NCBI RefSeq assembly: GCF_007655485.1
Contig: NZ_VJXQ01000002.1
Coordinates: 1 to 64,000 of the forward strand
Source: Halobellus captivus
GTDB taxonomy: Archaea; Halobacteriota; Halobacteria; Halobacteriales; Haloferacaceae
Reading direction: 5' to 3'
DNA: 64,000 nucleotides
Shown in pieces: positions 21,053 to 26,727 of the stretch (position 1 is its first letter; every line of letters begins with the position of its first letter). The notes beneath the pieces are model-generated. The model saw nothing but the letters and a program-made list of their open reading frames with translations, was not told the origin of the DNA and did not search any database. A program made the position numbers and the translations under genes.

Positions 21053-23572
21053 ATGGCCGATTCGCATCGAACTGCGCGACAGTCCGATCGGAAAGACGCA
21101 CTTTCGGGATCCGAGCGCTGTGCCCGACTCGCCGACGCCGAACTGATACGACGCTATCGAGTCGCGCTGGAAGAGACGATCGACGATCCCGTCGTCGCGG
21201 CCGAGCTCGACGCGTGGCGACAGTACGTCTCCGACCGACAGGGGGACGTCTTCACGAAACTTCACGAGCAGTCTCAGCGCTCGCCGGAAGCCTCGGCCCC
21301 GCATCCCGACAAGCAAACAGAAACAGACGTCGCCCGCGACCTGTTCGTGGAGACGCTGACGTTCGATTTCCTCCTCACGCGCGTGATCGACGCGCTCGAA
21401 TCAACGGTTCAGTGCCGCGTCAGACAACCGCTCGCGGCGGCCGCCGCCGTATCCTTTGACGCGGAGTTCGAGACCGTCCACGAGCGCGTGATCGAGCGAG
21501 AGTCGGTGTCTGGCCCGGAAAACCCGGAGGCGGCATTTCGACCGCTCGCCGTCGACTTCGCCGAGTCGGCCTCGCCGTACGACGTGGCGAGACTCCACCG
21601 AGAGTGCGTCTCGCCGCTCACTAGGCGGGCCTTCGGTCGGTACGATACCCCCCGAGGAGTTGCCGAACTCGCCGTCGAAACGCTCTTCGAGGAGTCCGAC
21701 CGCGAACTCCAGTCGTTCACTACGGAGGTTGGTACCGATCCGCTCGTCCTGGATCCGGGATGCGGTGCCGGTGCGTTCTTGGCCGCCGCGGCGGAGCGAT
21801 GCGTGACGAACGAGTCGAGCGCGTCGCAACAGACGACGACCGCGTCGCCACAAGCACGTCTTCGATCGGTTCTCGACTCGGTTCGCGGCTTCGACGTCTC
21901 GCCGACCGCCGTTCGGGCCGCTCGGCTCGCACTCCTGCTCGCCGTTCGACCGCTGCTCGCGTCCGTCGGCGAGGCAGAATCGTCCCGACTGGCAGCCATC
22001 GACGAGACGAAGCCATCCCAGTTGGTCGCTGTCGAGGAGAGGGAACCATCTCAGTTGGCTGCTGTCGATGAGAGGGAACCGCCCCGCCACGAGGCACCGC
22101 ACTTCGCCCCGCGTGTCGTCCTCGGCGATGCGGCGCTCGCGACTCCCGAAGATCAGCCGCTGAACGGACGGCGCGCGGACGCGCTCCTCGTGAATCCCCC
22201 GTGGCTCACGTGGGACGCGCTCCCGGAGACGGTCAAAGCGCGCTGGCGTGCCGCGTCCGACGGCGACCGAGCGCCGAACCTGTTCGATCACCGCGGTGTC
22301 GACGCGCGATTGGGCTTCGCGAACGACGACCTGTCGGTTCCCTACACGGTTCACTGTCTCCATCGACTGCTTCGCGACGACGGGCGCGCGTCGATAGTTC
22401 TGAAACGCGACCTACTCACCGGCCCCGCGGGCAGACGGCTCAGACGCCCGAAAATCGGCGACCGGTCCCTCGTCTACGACCGCGTTCACGACTTCGGCTC
22501 GCTGGCCCCGTTTTCGGACGTCGATGCGGGGACCGCGCTCTTCGGTTGCCGAATCACGACGAGTTCGGAGCCCGCGGATCCGGAGATTCCCACGACGCGA
22601 TGGCAACGCACCGAGCGGACTGAATCCGAGTCACGGAAAACCGACCGACTCGACGACCCCTTCGCGTCGCTGTCGGCGATGCGTCGTTCTCTGGCCCGCG
22701 CTGAGACGCACCTCGTCCCGACAGACCCGGGACACCCGTCGTCGCCGTGGATCCGTTCCGACGCCGAACGCGGCGCTCTGGGGGCGTGCACCTACGAGAT
22801 CCGACACGGCGTGAAGGACGACGCGAAAGCCGTCTACGCGCTGGACGGCGAGACGATCGAACGACACGGGCTCGAATCGGACCACATCTACCCGTATCTG
22901 AAGTCGAAACACGTCGTGAAGTACGGCCTCTTCGGGCACGATCTGCAACTCGTCCCGCAACGAGGCGTCGGCGACGACAACGAAGCGGCGCTCCGGAGGG
23001 AGACCCCAGCGACGTACGCGTATCTGGAGAGGAATCGCGACCGACTACTCGACCGCGGTTCGTCGTGGTTCGACGACGGTCCCTTCTACTCGCTGTTCGG
23101 TCTCGGACCGTACACGTGGGCCGACTACAAGGTCGTCTGGTGTCGACTGGGATTCAAACCGCACTTCGCCGTCGCCTCGACCGTTTCCGATCCGATAGTC
23201 GGCGAGAAGCCGGTCGTGCCCGGAGATCACTGTATGTTCGTCGGCACCGACGACGAGCGCGAGGCGCACTATCTCTGCGCCCTGCTCAACTCCGCGCCGT
23301 ACCAGCGATGTCTCCGCGACATCTCCTCCGGCGGCAAATCGAGCCTCTCGAAATCGACCGTCGAACGGCTCGCACTCCCCGAGTGGACGTCGACGGACAG
23401 TCAGCGACGGCTCGCGACGCTGTCGCAGCGAGCGCACGAGATCGTCCCCGAACACGTCGACTGCTCGAAGCGGGCCTATAACGAGAAGACGATTCCAGAA
23501 CTGGCCGCGGTCCAGAGCCGGATCGACCGCACGGCCGAACGGCTCCTCGTGGACCACGGAGAACCGTCGTGA
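21053..23572 (+). CDS. N6-adenine DNA methyltransferase-like protein
   Basis: This 839-residue protein has an amino-methyltransferase core: the SAM-binding motif VLDPGCGAGAFLAAAAERC (about 235-253), then the catalytic NPPW motif in LLVNPPWLTW (about 380). The C-terminal third contains VVPGDHCMFVGT and LCALLNSAPYQ, similar to the target-recognition parts of type IIG and class I methyltransferases. No nuclease motif is obvious. ATG at 21053 is taken because GGAGG precedes it by about 12 nt; a GTG at 21041, overlapping the helicase TGA, is the alternative. Residues 310-342 are a three-fold 11-residue repeat. Target sequence and partner endonuclease are unknown; a restriction-free, origin-linked role is possible. 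Confidence 0.78.
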   Translation: MADSHRTARQSDRKDALSGSERCARLADAELIRRYRVALEETIDDPVVAAELDAWRQYVSDRQGDVFTKLHEQSQRSPEASAPHPDKQTETDVARDLFVETLTFDFLLTRVIDALESTVQCRVRQPLAAAAAVSFDAEFETVHERVIERESVSGPENPEAAFRPLAVDFAESASPYDVARLHRECVSPLTRRAFGRYDTPRGVAELAVETLFEESDRELQSFTTEVGTDPLVLDPGCGAGAFLAAAAERCVTNESSASQQTTTASPQARLRSVLDSVRGFDVSPTAVRAARLALLLAVRPLLASVGEAESSRLAAIDETKPSQLVAVEEREPSQLAAVDEREPPRHEAPHFAPRVVLGDAALATPEDQPLNGRRADALLVNPPWLTWDALPETVKARWRAASDGDRAPNLFDHRGVDARLGFANDDLSVPYTVHCLHRLLRDDGRASIVLKRDLLTGPAGRRLRRPKIGDRSLVYDRVHDFGSLAPFSDVDAGTALFGCRITTSSEPADPEIPTTRWQRTERTESESRKTDRLDDPFASLSAMRRSLARAETHLVPTDPGHPSSPWIRSDAERGALGACTYEIRHGVKDDAKAVYALDGETIERHGLESDHIYPYLKSKHVVKYGLFGHDLQLVPQRGVGDDNEAALRRETPATYAYLERNRDRLLDRGSSWFDDGPFYSLFGLGPYTWADYKVVWCRLGFKPHFAVASTVSDPIVGEKPVVPGDHCMFVGTDDEREAHYLCALLNSAPYQRCLRDISSGGKSSLSKSTVERLALPEWTSTDSQRRLATLSQRAHEIVPEHVDCSKRAYNEKTIPELAAVQSRIDRTAERLLVDHGEPS
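21980..22078 (+). repeat. Three-fold 33-bp repeat within the methyltransferase-like gene
   Basis: Units start at 21980, 22013 and 22046 and encode SSRLAAIDETK, PSQLVAVEERE and PSQLAAVDERE. The unit length is a multiple of three, so the frame is kept. It lies between the SAM-binding and NPPW motifs in a loop. Confidence 0.85.
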
Positions 23573-23624
23573 ACCCGTTTGTTATCTTCGCGCACCGAAC
23601 CGACTGACGGCTTCGATGAGTAAC

Positions 23625-23632
23625 CCTTAAGT
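23625..23632 (+). promoter_or_regulatory. TATA box of tRNA-Tyr
   Basis: CCTTAAGT lies about 27-34 nt ahead of the tRNA, like the TTAAGT boxes of the rRNA promoter. Confidence 0.55.
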
Positions 23633-23658
23633 CTGCCAGCGGTGCTACGTTCACTTGC

Positions 23659-23732
23659 CCGCCCTTAGCTCAGCCTGGTAGAGCAGCCGACTGTAGATCG
23701 GCTTGTCCCCCGTTCAATTCGGGGAGGGCGGA
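23659..23732 (+). tRNA. tRNA-Tyr (anticodon GTA)
   Basis: The 74-nt cloverleaf has acceptor CCGCCCT/AGGGCGG, anticodon loop CTGTAGA with GTA, and T arm CCCCGTTCAATTCGGGG. The C1-G72 pair is the known identity element of archaeal tRNA-Tyr. CCA is not encoded and no intron is seen. The 3' part of this gene is repeated at 23754-23858. Confidence 0.95.
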
Positions 23733-23753
23733 CTCGTTTTCAAGCCGATTCGG

Positions 23754-23858
23754 AGCCGACTGTAGATCGGCTTGTCCCCCGTCCCCACGAGCGCAGCGAG
23801 TGGGGAACAGCGAGACGAGCACCGCGAGTCTCGCGCGTTTCAATTCGGGGAGGGCGGA
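23754..23858 (+). pseudogene. Interrupted partial copy of tRNA-Tyr
   Basis: Bases 23754-23782 repeat exactly 29 nt of tRNA-Tyr (anticodon arm to the T stem). Then 55 unrelated nt intervene, and 23838-23858 repeat the last 20 nt of the tRNA. The acceptor 5' half and D arm are absent. The insert falls in the T loop and can fold into two hairpins (CCCCAC/GTGGGG and GCGAGAC/GTCTCGC). It looks like an old integration scar or a local duplication hit by a short element. Confidence 0.85.
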
Positions 23859-23868
23859 TATTTATAAG
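23859..23868 (+). promoter_or_regulatory. TATA box before the small zinc-finger gene
   Basis: TATTTATAAG follows directly on the tRNA fragment. With a start about 25 nt later, the mRNA would have a leader of about 75 nt with GGAGGT at 23950-23955. Confidence 0.5.
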
Positions 23869-23963
23869 AGGCGGACGCTTCGCCGTCCGTCATTCGACTC
23901 CGTTCACAGACCCAAGAGGTCGACCTATCGGCATAACGACGTACTCGAAGGAGGTATCTCCCG

Positions 23964-24155
23964 ATGATGAACCTCTCACGAGGTTCGTCTGTCGAGCCCT
24001 CGCAGTGCCTCCATTGCGGTTCTCACGTGAGCCGGAACTTCCGGCGCACCTTCGGCGACGACGAGCAGCGGGCGCACCGCTGTCTCGCCTGCGACACTCG
24101 ACCTCGCGTACAGATGGGATCAGCCGCGGGACGGACTGTTCAATCCCGACCCTGA
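23964..24155 (+). CDS. Small haloarchaeal zinc-finger protein (DUF7563-like)
   Basis: This 63-residue protein has two CxxC knuckles: CLHCGSHV at residues 15-22 and CLACDTRP near 42, separated by FRRTFGDDEQRAHR. This pattern is that of the widespread tiny zinc-finger proteins of haloarchaea, whose functions are mostly unknown. The start is supported by a clear Shine-Dalgarno GGAGGT eight bases upstream, unusual in this mostly leaderless genome. ATG is doubled (23964 and 23967). It lies right behind the tRNA-Tyr duplication at the edge of a decayed accessory patch. Confidence 0.8.
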   Translation: MMNLSRGSSVEPSQCLHCGSHVSRNFRRTFGDDEQRAHRCLACDTRPRVQMGSAAGRTVQSRP

Positions 24156-24412
24156 GGACCAACCAGAACGAAACAAGGGCCCGCGCGGCCTCCTGTGCGA
24201 TCCCACACGCGAGCCCGCGCTTGTCGCCCGTCGACGTCGCTTCGGTGAGTTCTGCGAAATCGGTTCGTCTGTCATATCAAATTAAGTATGATTACGATCG
24301 TCGCGATTCGAGGGGGGTAGGGGGGTGGTCCCCGTGGTAGTTGAAGATACGCGCGTGCGAAGCGATCCGAAAGCGTGCTCGCGGTCGTCTGTCAGCGGAC
24401 AGAGGCGTAGAT

Positions 24413-24447
24413 CCGGATCTCCGATCCGGGTGCGATCGCTTTTTTTT
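24413..24447 (+). terminator. Candidate terminator in the 24156-24619 gap
   Basis: The hairpin CCGGAT/ATCCGG is followed by a run of eight T (24440-24447), a typical archaeal termination signal. It may end the zinc-finger transcript. The rest of 24156-24619 holds no gene I can support; AT-rich stretches near 24280 and 24450-24480 are noted. Confidence 0.45.
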
Positions 24448-24619
24448 CGAAAATCGCTCGAAAACCGATTTTTGTGTTTCACACGCTACCCCACTCGTCG
24501 CGATCGATCCGATCAGCGTCACCCCGAGATTCAAAAGAAGATTCGGCTAAGCGGGTCGTTTCCTCGTTAGATGCTGATCTGGAGATAGTTTTATCATAGG
24601 GGATTGTCACGCGGCAGCT

Positions 24620-24919
24620 ATGCAGAAACTTAGGCACGACGGTGGTTCCGGTCTCGTTACGATTCCGAAGCACTACCTCAATATGGACGACGTCATCGAA
24701 GACGGCGATCTCAGGGAGGACGTCGCCGTGGCCGTCGAGCGACTCGGTCGACGATGCTACGCAGTTCGGATTCCCGACGGCGGCGATCTCTGTGATCTCT
24801 CCGAGACGGATTTCATAGAGCGCCTCGTTGGCCAACGGCTGCTCAACGAGAACTCATCTCGATCGCGTCTCGCATCGTCTCGACATCCTCCTCATCGAGG
24901 ATTCCGGCGAGGTCGGTAA
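24620..24919 (+). CDS. Small haloarchaeal protein, probably with replaced C-terminus
   Basis: The frame encodes 99 residues. The first 77, beginning MQKLRHDGGSGLVTIPKHYL, read like a natural acidic protein with an AbrB-like opening (GLVTIPKHYL) and DLCDLSETDFIERLVGQRL. The last 22 are Ser/Arg/Pro-rich and are just the antisense of the orphan antitoxin gene, so the original end was probably lost. TATA-like TTTTATCA lies about 25 nt upstream. The family is not recognised with confidence; a DNA-binding or antitoxin-like role is a guess. Confidence 0.5.
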   Translation: MQKLRHDGGSGLVTIPKHYLNMDDVIEDGDLREDVAVAVERLGRRCYAVRIPDGGDLCDLSETDFIERLVGQRLLNENSSRSRLASSRHPPHRGFRRGR

Positions 24920-25034
24920 CCGACGGGCGGTGTGTGAGGCGGTCGACCGCCTCCGAGAACGTTTCGTCCTCGCGCTTGTGCGCCTCGATATAGGCGTACG
25001 TGTCCTCGTCGAGGCGGACTGATTTCGTTCCCAT
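24843..25034 (-). CDS. VapB-type antitoxin without partner toxin
   Basis: This 63-residue protein reads MGTKSVRLDEDTYAYIEAHK, then DETFSEAVDRL and LAGILDEEDVETMRDAI. This is the haloarchaeal VapB antitoxin pattern that normally precedes a PIN-domain toxin. Here nothing on the minus strand beyond its stop encodes a toxin; the region is taken by the opposing frame ending at 24919, with which it overlaps by 77 bp. The longer reading from 25109 adds non-family residues and is rejected. It is likely a remnant of a broken toxin-antitoxin pair or a free regulator. Confidence 0.7.
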   Translation of the reverse strand: MGTKSVRLDEDTYAYIEAHKREDETFSEAVDRLTHRPSVTDLAGILDEEDVETMRDAIEMSSR

Positions 25035-25279
25035 AGCTGTAGAAACAACCGTGTAGGGCTTGAATCTGATGCTGGGGTGTGTAGGTGTGAACGGTAGAAG
25101 TGGTATCACCCGTTTGGTGTGCTGCTACTCACCTTCCGGATTCTATAGAGAAGGTTGCAAGATGTGCCTACGGGAGCGGCGTGATCGGAGCCGAATCAGG
25201 GCCGGATTCGGTTGTTCGTTTCCGAGTTGAATGAGAAGTCGGCAAAGTCGCGGTGGCTTACAGACTAGTCGGCGACACA

Positions 25280-25314
25280 CTTAGTACAACTCGGAGTCGT
25301 AAGTACAACTAAGA
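25280..25314 (+). promoter_or_regulatory. Candidate vapBC operator
   Basis: AGTACAACT occurs twice (25283-25291 and 25302-25310), 19 nt apart, within outer inverted ends CTTAGT/ACTAAG. The pair lies immediately before the antitoxin start, a suitable place for autoregulation by the AbrB-type antitoxin. The 25035-25279 stretch shows no gene. Confidence 0.5.
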
Positions 25315-25623
25315 ATGTCGAGTAGTACTCAGGTCAAGCAAGTAATACAAGTGTCTCAGAAGGGACAAGCGACCATCCCGAAACCGCTTCGTGAGAAGTT
25401 CGGGATCGACACGCCCGGAGAGGTGTTTGTGTACGAGGAAGAGGGGCGCATCGTCATTGAGCCTGTACCATCTGTCGGGGAACTCCACGGGATCCACGCC
25501 GGGAGTCACGAACCCGGAGAGGTGCTGGACAAAGTACGCGAACTCAAAGACGAGGAAAAGCGCCGCGAAGAAGAGCGCGTTGAACGACTCCGCCCGTCTG
25601 CGGATGAGGACGTCGAGGAATGA
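25315..25623 (+). CDS. vapB: AbrB-family antitoxin of a vapBC pair
   Basis: This 102-residue protein has a swapped-hairpin AbrB domain at about 10-50 (VSQKGQATIPKPLREKFGID, then EVFVYEEEGRIVIEPV) and an acidic, charged C-terminal helix (DKVRELKDEEKRREEERVER) that would wrap the toxin. Its stop overlaps the toxin ATG (ATGA), as is usual for such pairs. It should bind DNA ahead of its own gene and neutralise the PIN toxin. The repeat AGTACAACT upstream is a likely target. Confidence 0.88.
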   Translation: MSSSTQVKQVIQVSQKGQATIPKPLREKFGIDTPGEVFVYEEEGRIVIEPVPSVGELHGIHAGSHEPGEVLDKVRELKDEEKRREEERVERLRPSADEDVEE

Positions 25624-26060
25624 GTTCGGGCTACGTTTTCGACACCGAGGCAATCATCGCGTTCCTGTATAACGAACCCGGTCACGACGCCGTCGCCGAC
25701 CTGCTGACCGATGTTTTTGCAAACGACATACCGGGATGCATCGCCGAGACGAACGCCAGCGAGGTATTCTATCTCGTTGCCCGCTTCCAGGGGACCGACG
25801 AGGGGAAACCAACGAAGGAATCGCTTCGAGAGGCCGATCGCGATCTCCGGGCGCTGGAACGTCGCGGGCTCCAATTCGACCGGGCTGATTGGCGGCTCGC
25901 GGGCGAAATTAAAGCCGACGGCCACATCTCGCTCGCGGACGCTCACGCCGTGACGTTGGCACACGAGCAGGACTTGACGCTGGTCGTCGGTGCCGACGAC
26001 GATTTCGACGACCTCCCCGTCTCAGTGGATCTTCTGCAGTTTCGGAACGACAGCGTTTGA
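25620..26060 (+). CDS. vapC: PIN-domain toxin VapC
   Basis: This 146-residue PIN-fold ribonuclease has its acidic active-site residues in YVFDTEAIIAFLY (Asp near residue 8), NASEVFY (Glu), SLADAHAVTLA (Asp) and GADDDFDDL (Asp). Length and residue spacing are normal and the reading frame is intact, so it is probably active. It is coupled to the antitoxin by a 4-bp overlap. RNA targets cannot be predicted; other VapCs cut tRNA or rRNA. Confidence 0.9.
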   Translation: MSSGYVFDTEAIIAFLYNEPGHDAVADLLTDVFANDIPGCIAETNASEVFYLVARFQGTDEGKPTKESLREADRDLRALERRGLQFDRADWRLAGEIKADGHISLADAHAVTLAHEQDLTLVVGADDDFDDLPVSVDLLQFRNDSV

Positions 26061-26099
26061 TTCCACTCGCGATTTGGTGATACAGACTTCTCACAGCAT

Positions 26100-26261
26100 A
26101 TGAGCCGTGACACCAACACGCCCGACAACGGGAAGGTGGTAAAGATCGATGCCCGCGTCTCCGACTCGGTACTGGGGACGATCGACGAGGAGTACGATCG
26201 CCGTGGGTACACCCCCGCCATAGGGACGCGGAGCGGCTTGTCTCACAAATCGGTACTGTAG
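26100..26261 (+). pseudogene. Frameshifted CopG-like antitoxin/regulator remnant
   Basis: An ATG at 26100 opens a 53-codon frame: MSRDTNTPDNGKVVKIDARV, then TIDEEYDRRGYT. This resembles the ribbon-helix-helix N-terminus of haloarchaeal CopG proteins. After RGYT the expected helix (SRSEAIR type) is replaced by unrelated residues and a stop, which suggests a frameshift or deletion. It lies 39 bp after vapC. Confidence 0.6.
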
Positions 26262-26377
26262 TGCTGTCCGGGTGACCAGCCGGTGACGTCGAGCCTGTTC
26301 AACGGGCGATTGTCCAATTGAAATGACATTGTCATCATCTATTTGTGAGGTCCCCGAGGGGGTACTGTATATCCGAA

Positions 26378-26503
26378 ATGAGCCAGGCGACCCTTGCTGA
26401 CCGCCCGTACGTGAACTCGAATCTATTCTCCGGGCACTACCTAGACGAGCGCTTTCGAGAACGCGACGAGTGGGACTGCGACGATGACGCGAGCGAGGCG
26501 CTC
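26378..26503 (+). pseudogene. N-terminal fragment of a methyltransferase-like gene
   Basis: An ATG after a TATA-like TGTATATCC starts a frame reading MSQATLADRPYVNSNLFSG then YLDERFRERDEWDCDDD. From memory this resembles the opening of large haloarchaeal restriction-modification methylase proteins. About 42 residues on, the sequence turns into unrelated Ser/Thr-rich code that no longer looks like a protein of that type. The body of the gene is missing. The assignment rests on N-terminal resemblance only. Confidence 0.45.
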
Positions 26504-26530
26504 ACCGGACGCTCTGGGTCTGGAAAATCT

Positions 26531-26559
26531 CCGGACCACTGCGCTAAGCAGCGGTCCGG
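26531..26559. repeat. 12-bp hairpin in the decayed region
   Basis: CCGGACCACTGC and GCAGCGGTCCGG are arms (one mismatch) around a GCTAA loop. The element lies in the otherwise gene-free 26504-26727 stretch, at the point where the methyltransferase-like fragment breaks off. It could be a terminal hairpin of a lost transposable element or a terminator. Confidence 0.45.
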
Positions 26560-26727
26560 TAAGTGGTCGTCAGATCCTATGACAACCGATTACGGAAACG
26601 TTGGGGGAGCGGATAAAACCCCCGACACGGCGGGCGCACCGATGATCACGATGACGACCAGTTCGACGCTTACGCAGGGTGGGTCGTCGAGGAAGTTCGC
26701 TAACCGATACAATCGCTGCTACGAACA

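Follow-up and report, generated by a model that had tools for sequence, protein, structure and literature searches.

How a tRNA gene comes to be followed by an incomplete second copy of its own 3' part, with two hairpins inside that copy, is the question raised by the tRNA-Tyr locus of Halobellus captivus. The locus lies in a window of 64,000 nucleotides, and a first-pass annotation of this window had described the copy as interrupted by a 55-bp insert able to fold into two hairpins, and had proposed either an att scar or a very small mobile hairpin element. The split copy is as described, with both of its pieces identical to the gene at every base and coordinates correct to within one base; both hairpins are likewise present, and the stretch between the 29-base and 20-base copies measures 56 bp (23783-23838). 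The components of the locus are collected in Table 1. The direct repeat lets 23733-23858 serve equally well as 23713-23838 for the limits of the 126-bp unit, which is gene-free and holds no integrase or other cargo between its repeats.

Table 1. Components of the tRNA-Tyr locus, in window coordinates
Feature	Position	Strand	Basis
tRNA-Tyr (GTA), intact	23659..23732	+	ARAGORN (end 23733); Rfam tRNA, 60.2 bits
Inserted 126-bp unit	23713..23838	+	Precisely these 126 bp are missing at the syntenic G009 locus
Direct repeat, left copy (T-loop to tRNA 3' end)	23713..23732	+	20/20 identity with 23839-23858
Unit spacer with T-rich start, CTCGTTTTC	23733..23753	+	Sequence; in other genomes, type A copies follow similar spacers
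Copy of anticodon arm to T-stem 5' strand	23754..23782	+	29/29 identity with 23685-23713
Separated half-site CTTGTCCCCCG, within the 29-base copy	23771-23781	+	
Hairpin 1, CCCCAC(GAGCGCAGCGA)GTGGGG	23783..23805	+	Fold; helix 2 of alignment
Hairpin 2, GCGAGAC(...)GTCTCGC	23810..23834	+	Fold; helix 3 of alignment
Direct repeat, right copy (T-loop to tRNA 3' end)	23839..23858	+	In G009 the same position is the tRNA's own end

The structure is supported by folding, as the interval 23734-23860 has a predicted energy of -56.5 kcal/mol (z = -3.1 relative to dinucleotide shuffles, of which one in 200 was as good). A scan of 23500-24400 against Rfam with E-values up to 1 returned the tRNA and two plastid models and no RtT RNA family, and assignment of the copy to an Rfam family other than tRNA was dropped on this result.

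Comparison with related genomes establishes what was inserted. Gene order at the locus is conserved throughout the genus: a helicase and a methyltransferase-like gene come before it and an aldehyde dehydrogenase after it. Over the kilobase upstream, one relative (G009) aligns at 79%, and its DNA past the tRNA aligns with the window DNA that follows the second tail copy; precisely 126 bp are absent from it, between flanks that are both syntenic. Compared with this relative, the unit is thus a block insertion, and it is the whole 126-bp block with its 20-bp tail repeat that needs explaining. The unit is also absent from the syntenic genomes G005, G007 and G011, and is found in the window genome (G000) and in G002. 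Between these two the insert is identical at 55 of 56 bases and the neighbouring genes are 82-85% identical, a difference that could reflect selection for function. The DNA between the tRNA and the aldehyde dehydrogenase (23859-26727) is variable across the genus; in the window it includes a DUF7563 protein (23964-24155), a VapB-like antitoxin on the minus strand (near 24850-25035) and a MazE/AbrB-PIN pair (25315-26060).

Similar units occur at many other tRNA genes. We counted a tail copy wherever at least 15 of the 19 tRNA tail bases recurred within 300 bp of a tRNA gene, with the upstream flank as control. In the organism's own genome, 11 of 41 tRNA genes have such a copy downstream and none has one in the 300-bp upstream flank, which excludes chance as the source of the copies. 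In another haloarchaeon (G161) the downstream count is 15 of 30, and the single upstream case resembles a neighbouring tandem tRNA-Asp gene. Host tRNAs in these two genomes include those for Tyr, Phe, His, Arg, Ser, Leu, Gly, Val, Asp, Pro, Met, Lys and Ala. A larger set of 101 tail copies, taken from all loci fetched and biased towards those bearing units, has a regular geometry: 95 end 90-169 bp past the previous tail, and 100 share at most five identical bases to the left of the T-loop, with identity stopping at the T-loop 5' edge. The sole exception to this boundary, a complete tandem tRNA-Asp, is also the sole clean copy, and no clean partial tRNA copy was found among the 101. The units therefore form a large haloarchaeal set, mostly 90-169 bp long and ending in the tail of the host tRNA, in which structured hairpins are a constant part.

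Two layouts recur within this set. Type A, seen in the window and at Tyr, Phe and Pro loci in seven families, consists of the spacer, a separated T-stem half-site and a double hairpin; type B has a hairpin adjoining the tRNA and then a long hairpin for which the tail provides the 3' strand. A simple automatic split of the 101 copies assigned 17 to type A, 44 to type B and 40 to neither. Units can also form arrays, such as three 131-bp repeats behind tRNA-Pro in G015. At tRNA-His (loci L283-L294), species of a single genus have zero, one or two type B units, and the hairpin sequences differ at the same position, as read by eye; by the same reading G015 appears empty and G009 retains a fragment only. 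This variation argues for gain, loss and replacement over a fixed function. Several type B units of the own genome (L105, L126, L133, L135) have an extra base in the repeated T-loop (for example TTCACAATC for TTCAAATC), which places a bulge in the stem of the long hairpin. The proposal that the inverted T-arm of type B is tailored to its own tRNA was reduced to a tendency, with 9.1 versus 7.7 of 12 bases matching and the own arm outscoring every other in 18 of 61 cases. Two tRNA-Arg loci of the own genome (L101, L120) show a shorter layout of one hairpin and approximately the last 13 tRNA bases, within ~70 bp downstream, and are possibly related to short-core (SNJ2-type) integrases.

With no clean partial copy among the 101, the hairpins appear to be intrinsic to these units and not, as the first-pass annotation had it, an insert that interrupts the copy. 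Across 11 type A inserts, 93% of the proposed pairs are kept, relative to 31-54% in slid controls, and 8 pairs are changed on both sides (shuffled mean 4.0, matched by 2 of 500 shuffles). In the alignment, 97.7% of cells are paired in the helix of hairpin 1 and 93.5% in that of hairpin 2, with 5 and 2 pairs, respectively, changed on both sides. A covariance model (R1) of these 11 inserts finds matches in 180 of 195 genomes of the order; the copies behind the model are tRNA-linked, and its E-values are rough. By inspection, 29 of the 30 best R1 loci are tRNA-tail copies. Among weaker loci, 20 chosen by hand are without a tRNA tail, and two of these contain the 3' end of an epimerase-family gene as an incomplete tandem duplicate in which the spacer, the short left identity, the double hairpin and the gene tail are arranged as at the tRNA units. 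At L188 (3081-3300, G124) and, on the reverse strand, at L189 (G146), the epimerase-family 3' end is followed by partial tandem copies with the double hairpin at the start of the repeated tail; those in G146 form 206-bp units. Double hairpins with similar tips and linker also occur in intergenic DNA of other haloarchaea (L177-L182 in G115, L183-L187, L190-L196), and in G115 they sit inside a longer repeat around GACTGAAAGGGCGAGG ... CCGAGGGCTTTCG. In the own genome, BLAST and pattern searches revealed no close dispersed copies of the insert, and the model finds only weaker look-alikes there; within the window the hairpin-tip motif shows no general enrichment. The tips themselves (GAGCGNAGCGAG) contain GCGNAGC, and d(GCGAAGC) is an unusually stable DNA mini-hairpin. 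Such stability in the tips would be fitting for a site used in the form of single-stranded DNA.

The distance between a type A unit and the start codon of a ~340-aa integrase is 17-270 bp in several cases, with the integrase pointing away from the unit, and both of the two unit-adjacent integrases checked carry PF00589 and PF02899. To avoid selection by hairpin, a second search was made via the integrase. In the seven loci with a recognisable Tyr, Phe or Pro target, the integrase-borne copies run through the T-stem (8-12 of 12 bases) and are without hairpins, and structured units, where present, lie beyond the integrase-borne attR copy; this suggests that integrative elements insert next to the tRNA, ahead of older units. 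Identification of the hairpin-bearing copies as attR of integrase elements was dropped after this search. The own genome encodes six intact integrases of the tRNA-targeting family. Two exact unit patterns had no match in viral contigs, and the one plasmid that matched did so in the tRNA part only.

Taken together, these observations bear out in part the earlier idea of a very small mobile element, in that a relative has an exact empty site, related units stand at many tRNA genes and turnover is quick; the inserted block, however, is the entire 126 bp and not the 55-bp insert. A situation in which relatives share the structure and no copies exist elsewhere, named in the first-pass annotation as contrary to its proposal, is not what the genomes contain. 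The att scar is likewise borne out only in part: a direct repeat of the tail does flank the insertion, but the units end at the T-loop edge where integrase-borne attR copies continue.

The reading that we favor, with a little less than even confidence, is that 23713-23838 is a gene-free integrative unit in the 3' end of tRNA-Tyr that recombined at the T-loop. Such a unit would supply its own copy of the tRNA tail; the gene would thus remain whole, with the displaced tail as the marker of the unit's far end. The T-loop is favored as the point of exchange because the tail identity begins at its 5' edge. Within tRNA genes the T-loop region is an established sub-site for integrases (review PMC8371274). 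T-loop-type tyrosine recombinases use this position. The candidate enzyme would probably act in trans, which the six intact integrases make possible. If the double hairpin were folded out, the half-site CTTGTCCCCCG would adjoin TTCAATTCGGGG, and a whole core site could form on the folded strand. The exact empty site, the presence or absence of the unit among syntenic genomes, the downstream excess of tail copies, narrow spacing, sharp T-loop boundary, tRNA-His turnover, tandem arrays and compensatory hairpin changes are in favor of this integrative reading, as are the integrases themselves. Against it stand the near-identity of the insert in G000 and G002, the viral contigs without a match and the hairpin-free attR copies, so that use of such sites by known integrases stays putative. 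A broader version, which we regard as rather doubtful, holds that cargo-free haloarchaeal units, mostly of 90-169 bp, recombine at the T-loop through a structure-gated split core that works only with the hairpins folded out of a single strand, and spread in trans with the help of integrases of the host or of elements, in the manner of empty integron cassettes.

The main functional rival to an integrative unit is a role like that of the E. coli rtT repeats, in which the hairpins would be co-transcribed with the tRNA as a putative trailer, terminator or small RNA. The compensatory base changes, the stability of the fold and the near-identical insert in G000 and G002 would all be accounted for, and at E. 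coli tyrT the tail copies, spaced every 178 bp, do lie beside an annotated RNA; most relatives, however, are without the unit at the same locus, and the tRNA-His hairpins differ or are missing by species. We consider such a role unlikely. It is similarly improbable that the locus is a relic, left when an integrative element at tRNA-Tyr lost all of its genes and a REP-like double hairpin later entered the T-loop of the leftover between two att arms. Leftovers of this kind should vary in length and include clean copies, and neither expectation agrees with the narrow spacing of 95 of the 101 copies or with the lack of a clean partial copy among them, nor does the recurrence of one layout at a protein gene as well as at several tRNAs. 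A relic would nevertheless fit with integrases of this family, which have Tyr, Phe and Pro tRNAs as targets and leave incomplete copies behind, with their closeness to several type A units, and with the partial tRNAs that stand directly beside full ones in Haloferax gibbonsii, for which the text read describes no structure (PMC7921747).

In a further alternative the double hairpin is itself mobile, as a REP-like element that an HUH (IS200/IS605-type) transposase would mobilise, with the tail copies as favored targets. Similar double hairpins in intergenic DNA and inside the partial copies of the epimerase-family 3' end are compatible with such movement, as is a possible empty/filled pair (CCTGGTG|GAYTGAAAGGG) drawn from different genomes and loci. 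The own genome holds only the weaker look-alikes found by the model, and the tail repeat, the constant spacer and the half-site would be left unexplained. We think movement of the hairpin by itself very unlikely.

The unit suggests a type of very small mobile element that has seldom been described. Our search of open-licence papers found no description of structured tail units, and the hairpin-tip sequences led to no haloarchaeal study among the papers listed. With units at approximately a quarter (own genome) to half (G161) of the tRNA genes tested, this would be a common and fast-changing haloarchaeal feature that is seemingly undescribed in the literature searched. If the units move, they would be among the smallest integrating elements and would show how tRNA-linked integration hotspots arise and change. 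Should they prove to be RNAs, they would be an archaeal equivalent of the rtT repeats. The range from zero to two units at one tRNA among species opens the way to a direct test.

Among known systems, the E. coli rtT repeats are alike in that units downstream of tRNA-Tyr each contain the last 19 tRNA bases; at tyrT we computed 178-bp steps for this 19-nt tail, where the RttR RNA is annotated. The haloarchaeal units differ in being hairpin-rich, mostly shorter (90-169 bp), present at many tRNAs and without a sequence or Rfam match to the E. coli repeats. The attL and attR sites of archaeal tyrosine integrases share the direct repeat of the tRNA 3' end (here the 20-bp repeat that flanks the 126 bp absent from G009), the choice of tRNAs and often an adjoining integrase. 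The unit, by contrast, carries neither cargo nor integrase and has hairpins within the core, and in 100 of 101 copies the displaced copy does not keep both core arms (T-stem 5' strand and T-loop). The nearest palindromic elements are the PATEs of Haloquadratum, which are MITEs, and bacterial REPs (PMC3733652, PMC3119063), which are also short, imperfectly palindromic and probably non-autonomous. They differ from our units, which are tied to tRNA (or gene) tails and, in the own genome, lack a close second copy in place of the many dispersed intergenic copies of a REP. Integron cassettes with attC sites, known from archaeal integrons (PMC9668308), have gene cargo and the core site GTTRRRY, where our units have no cargo and a GTTCAAT or TTTCAAT core; the integrase search, in which no integron integrase was linked to the units, covered the haloarchaeal tRNA-targeting family. 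The units nevertheless resemble these cassettes in forming arrays that grow at one site and in having a unit end that is a foldable imperfect hairpin.
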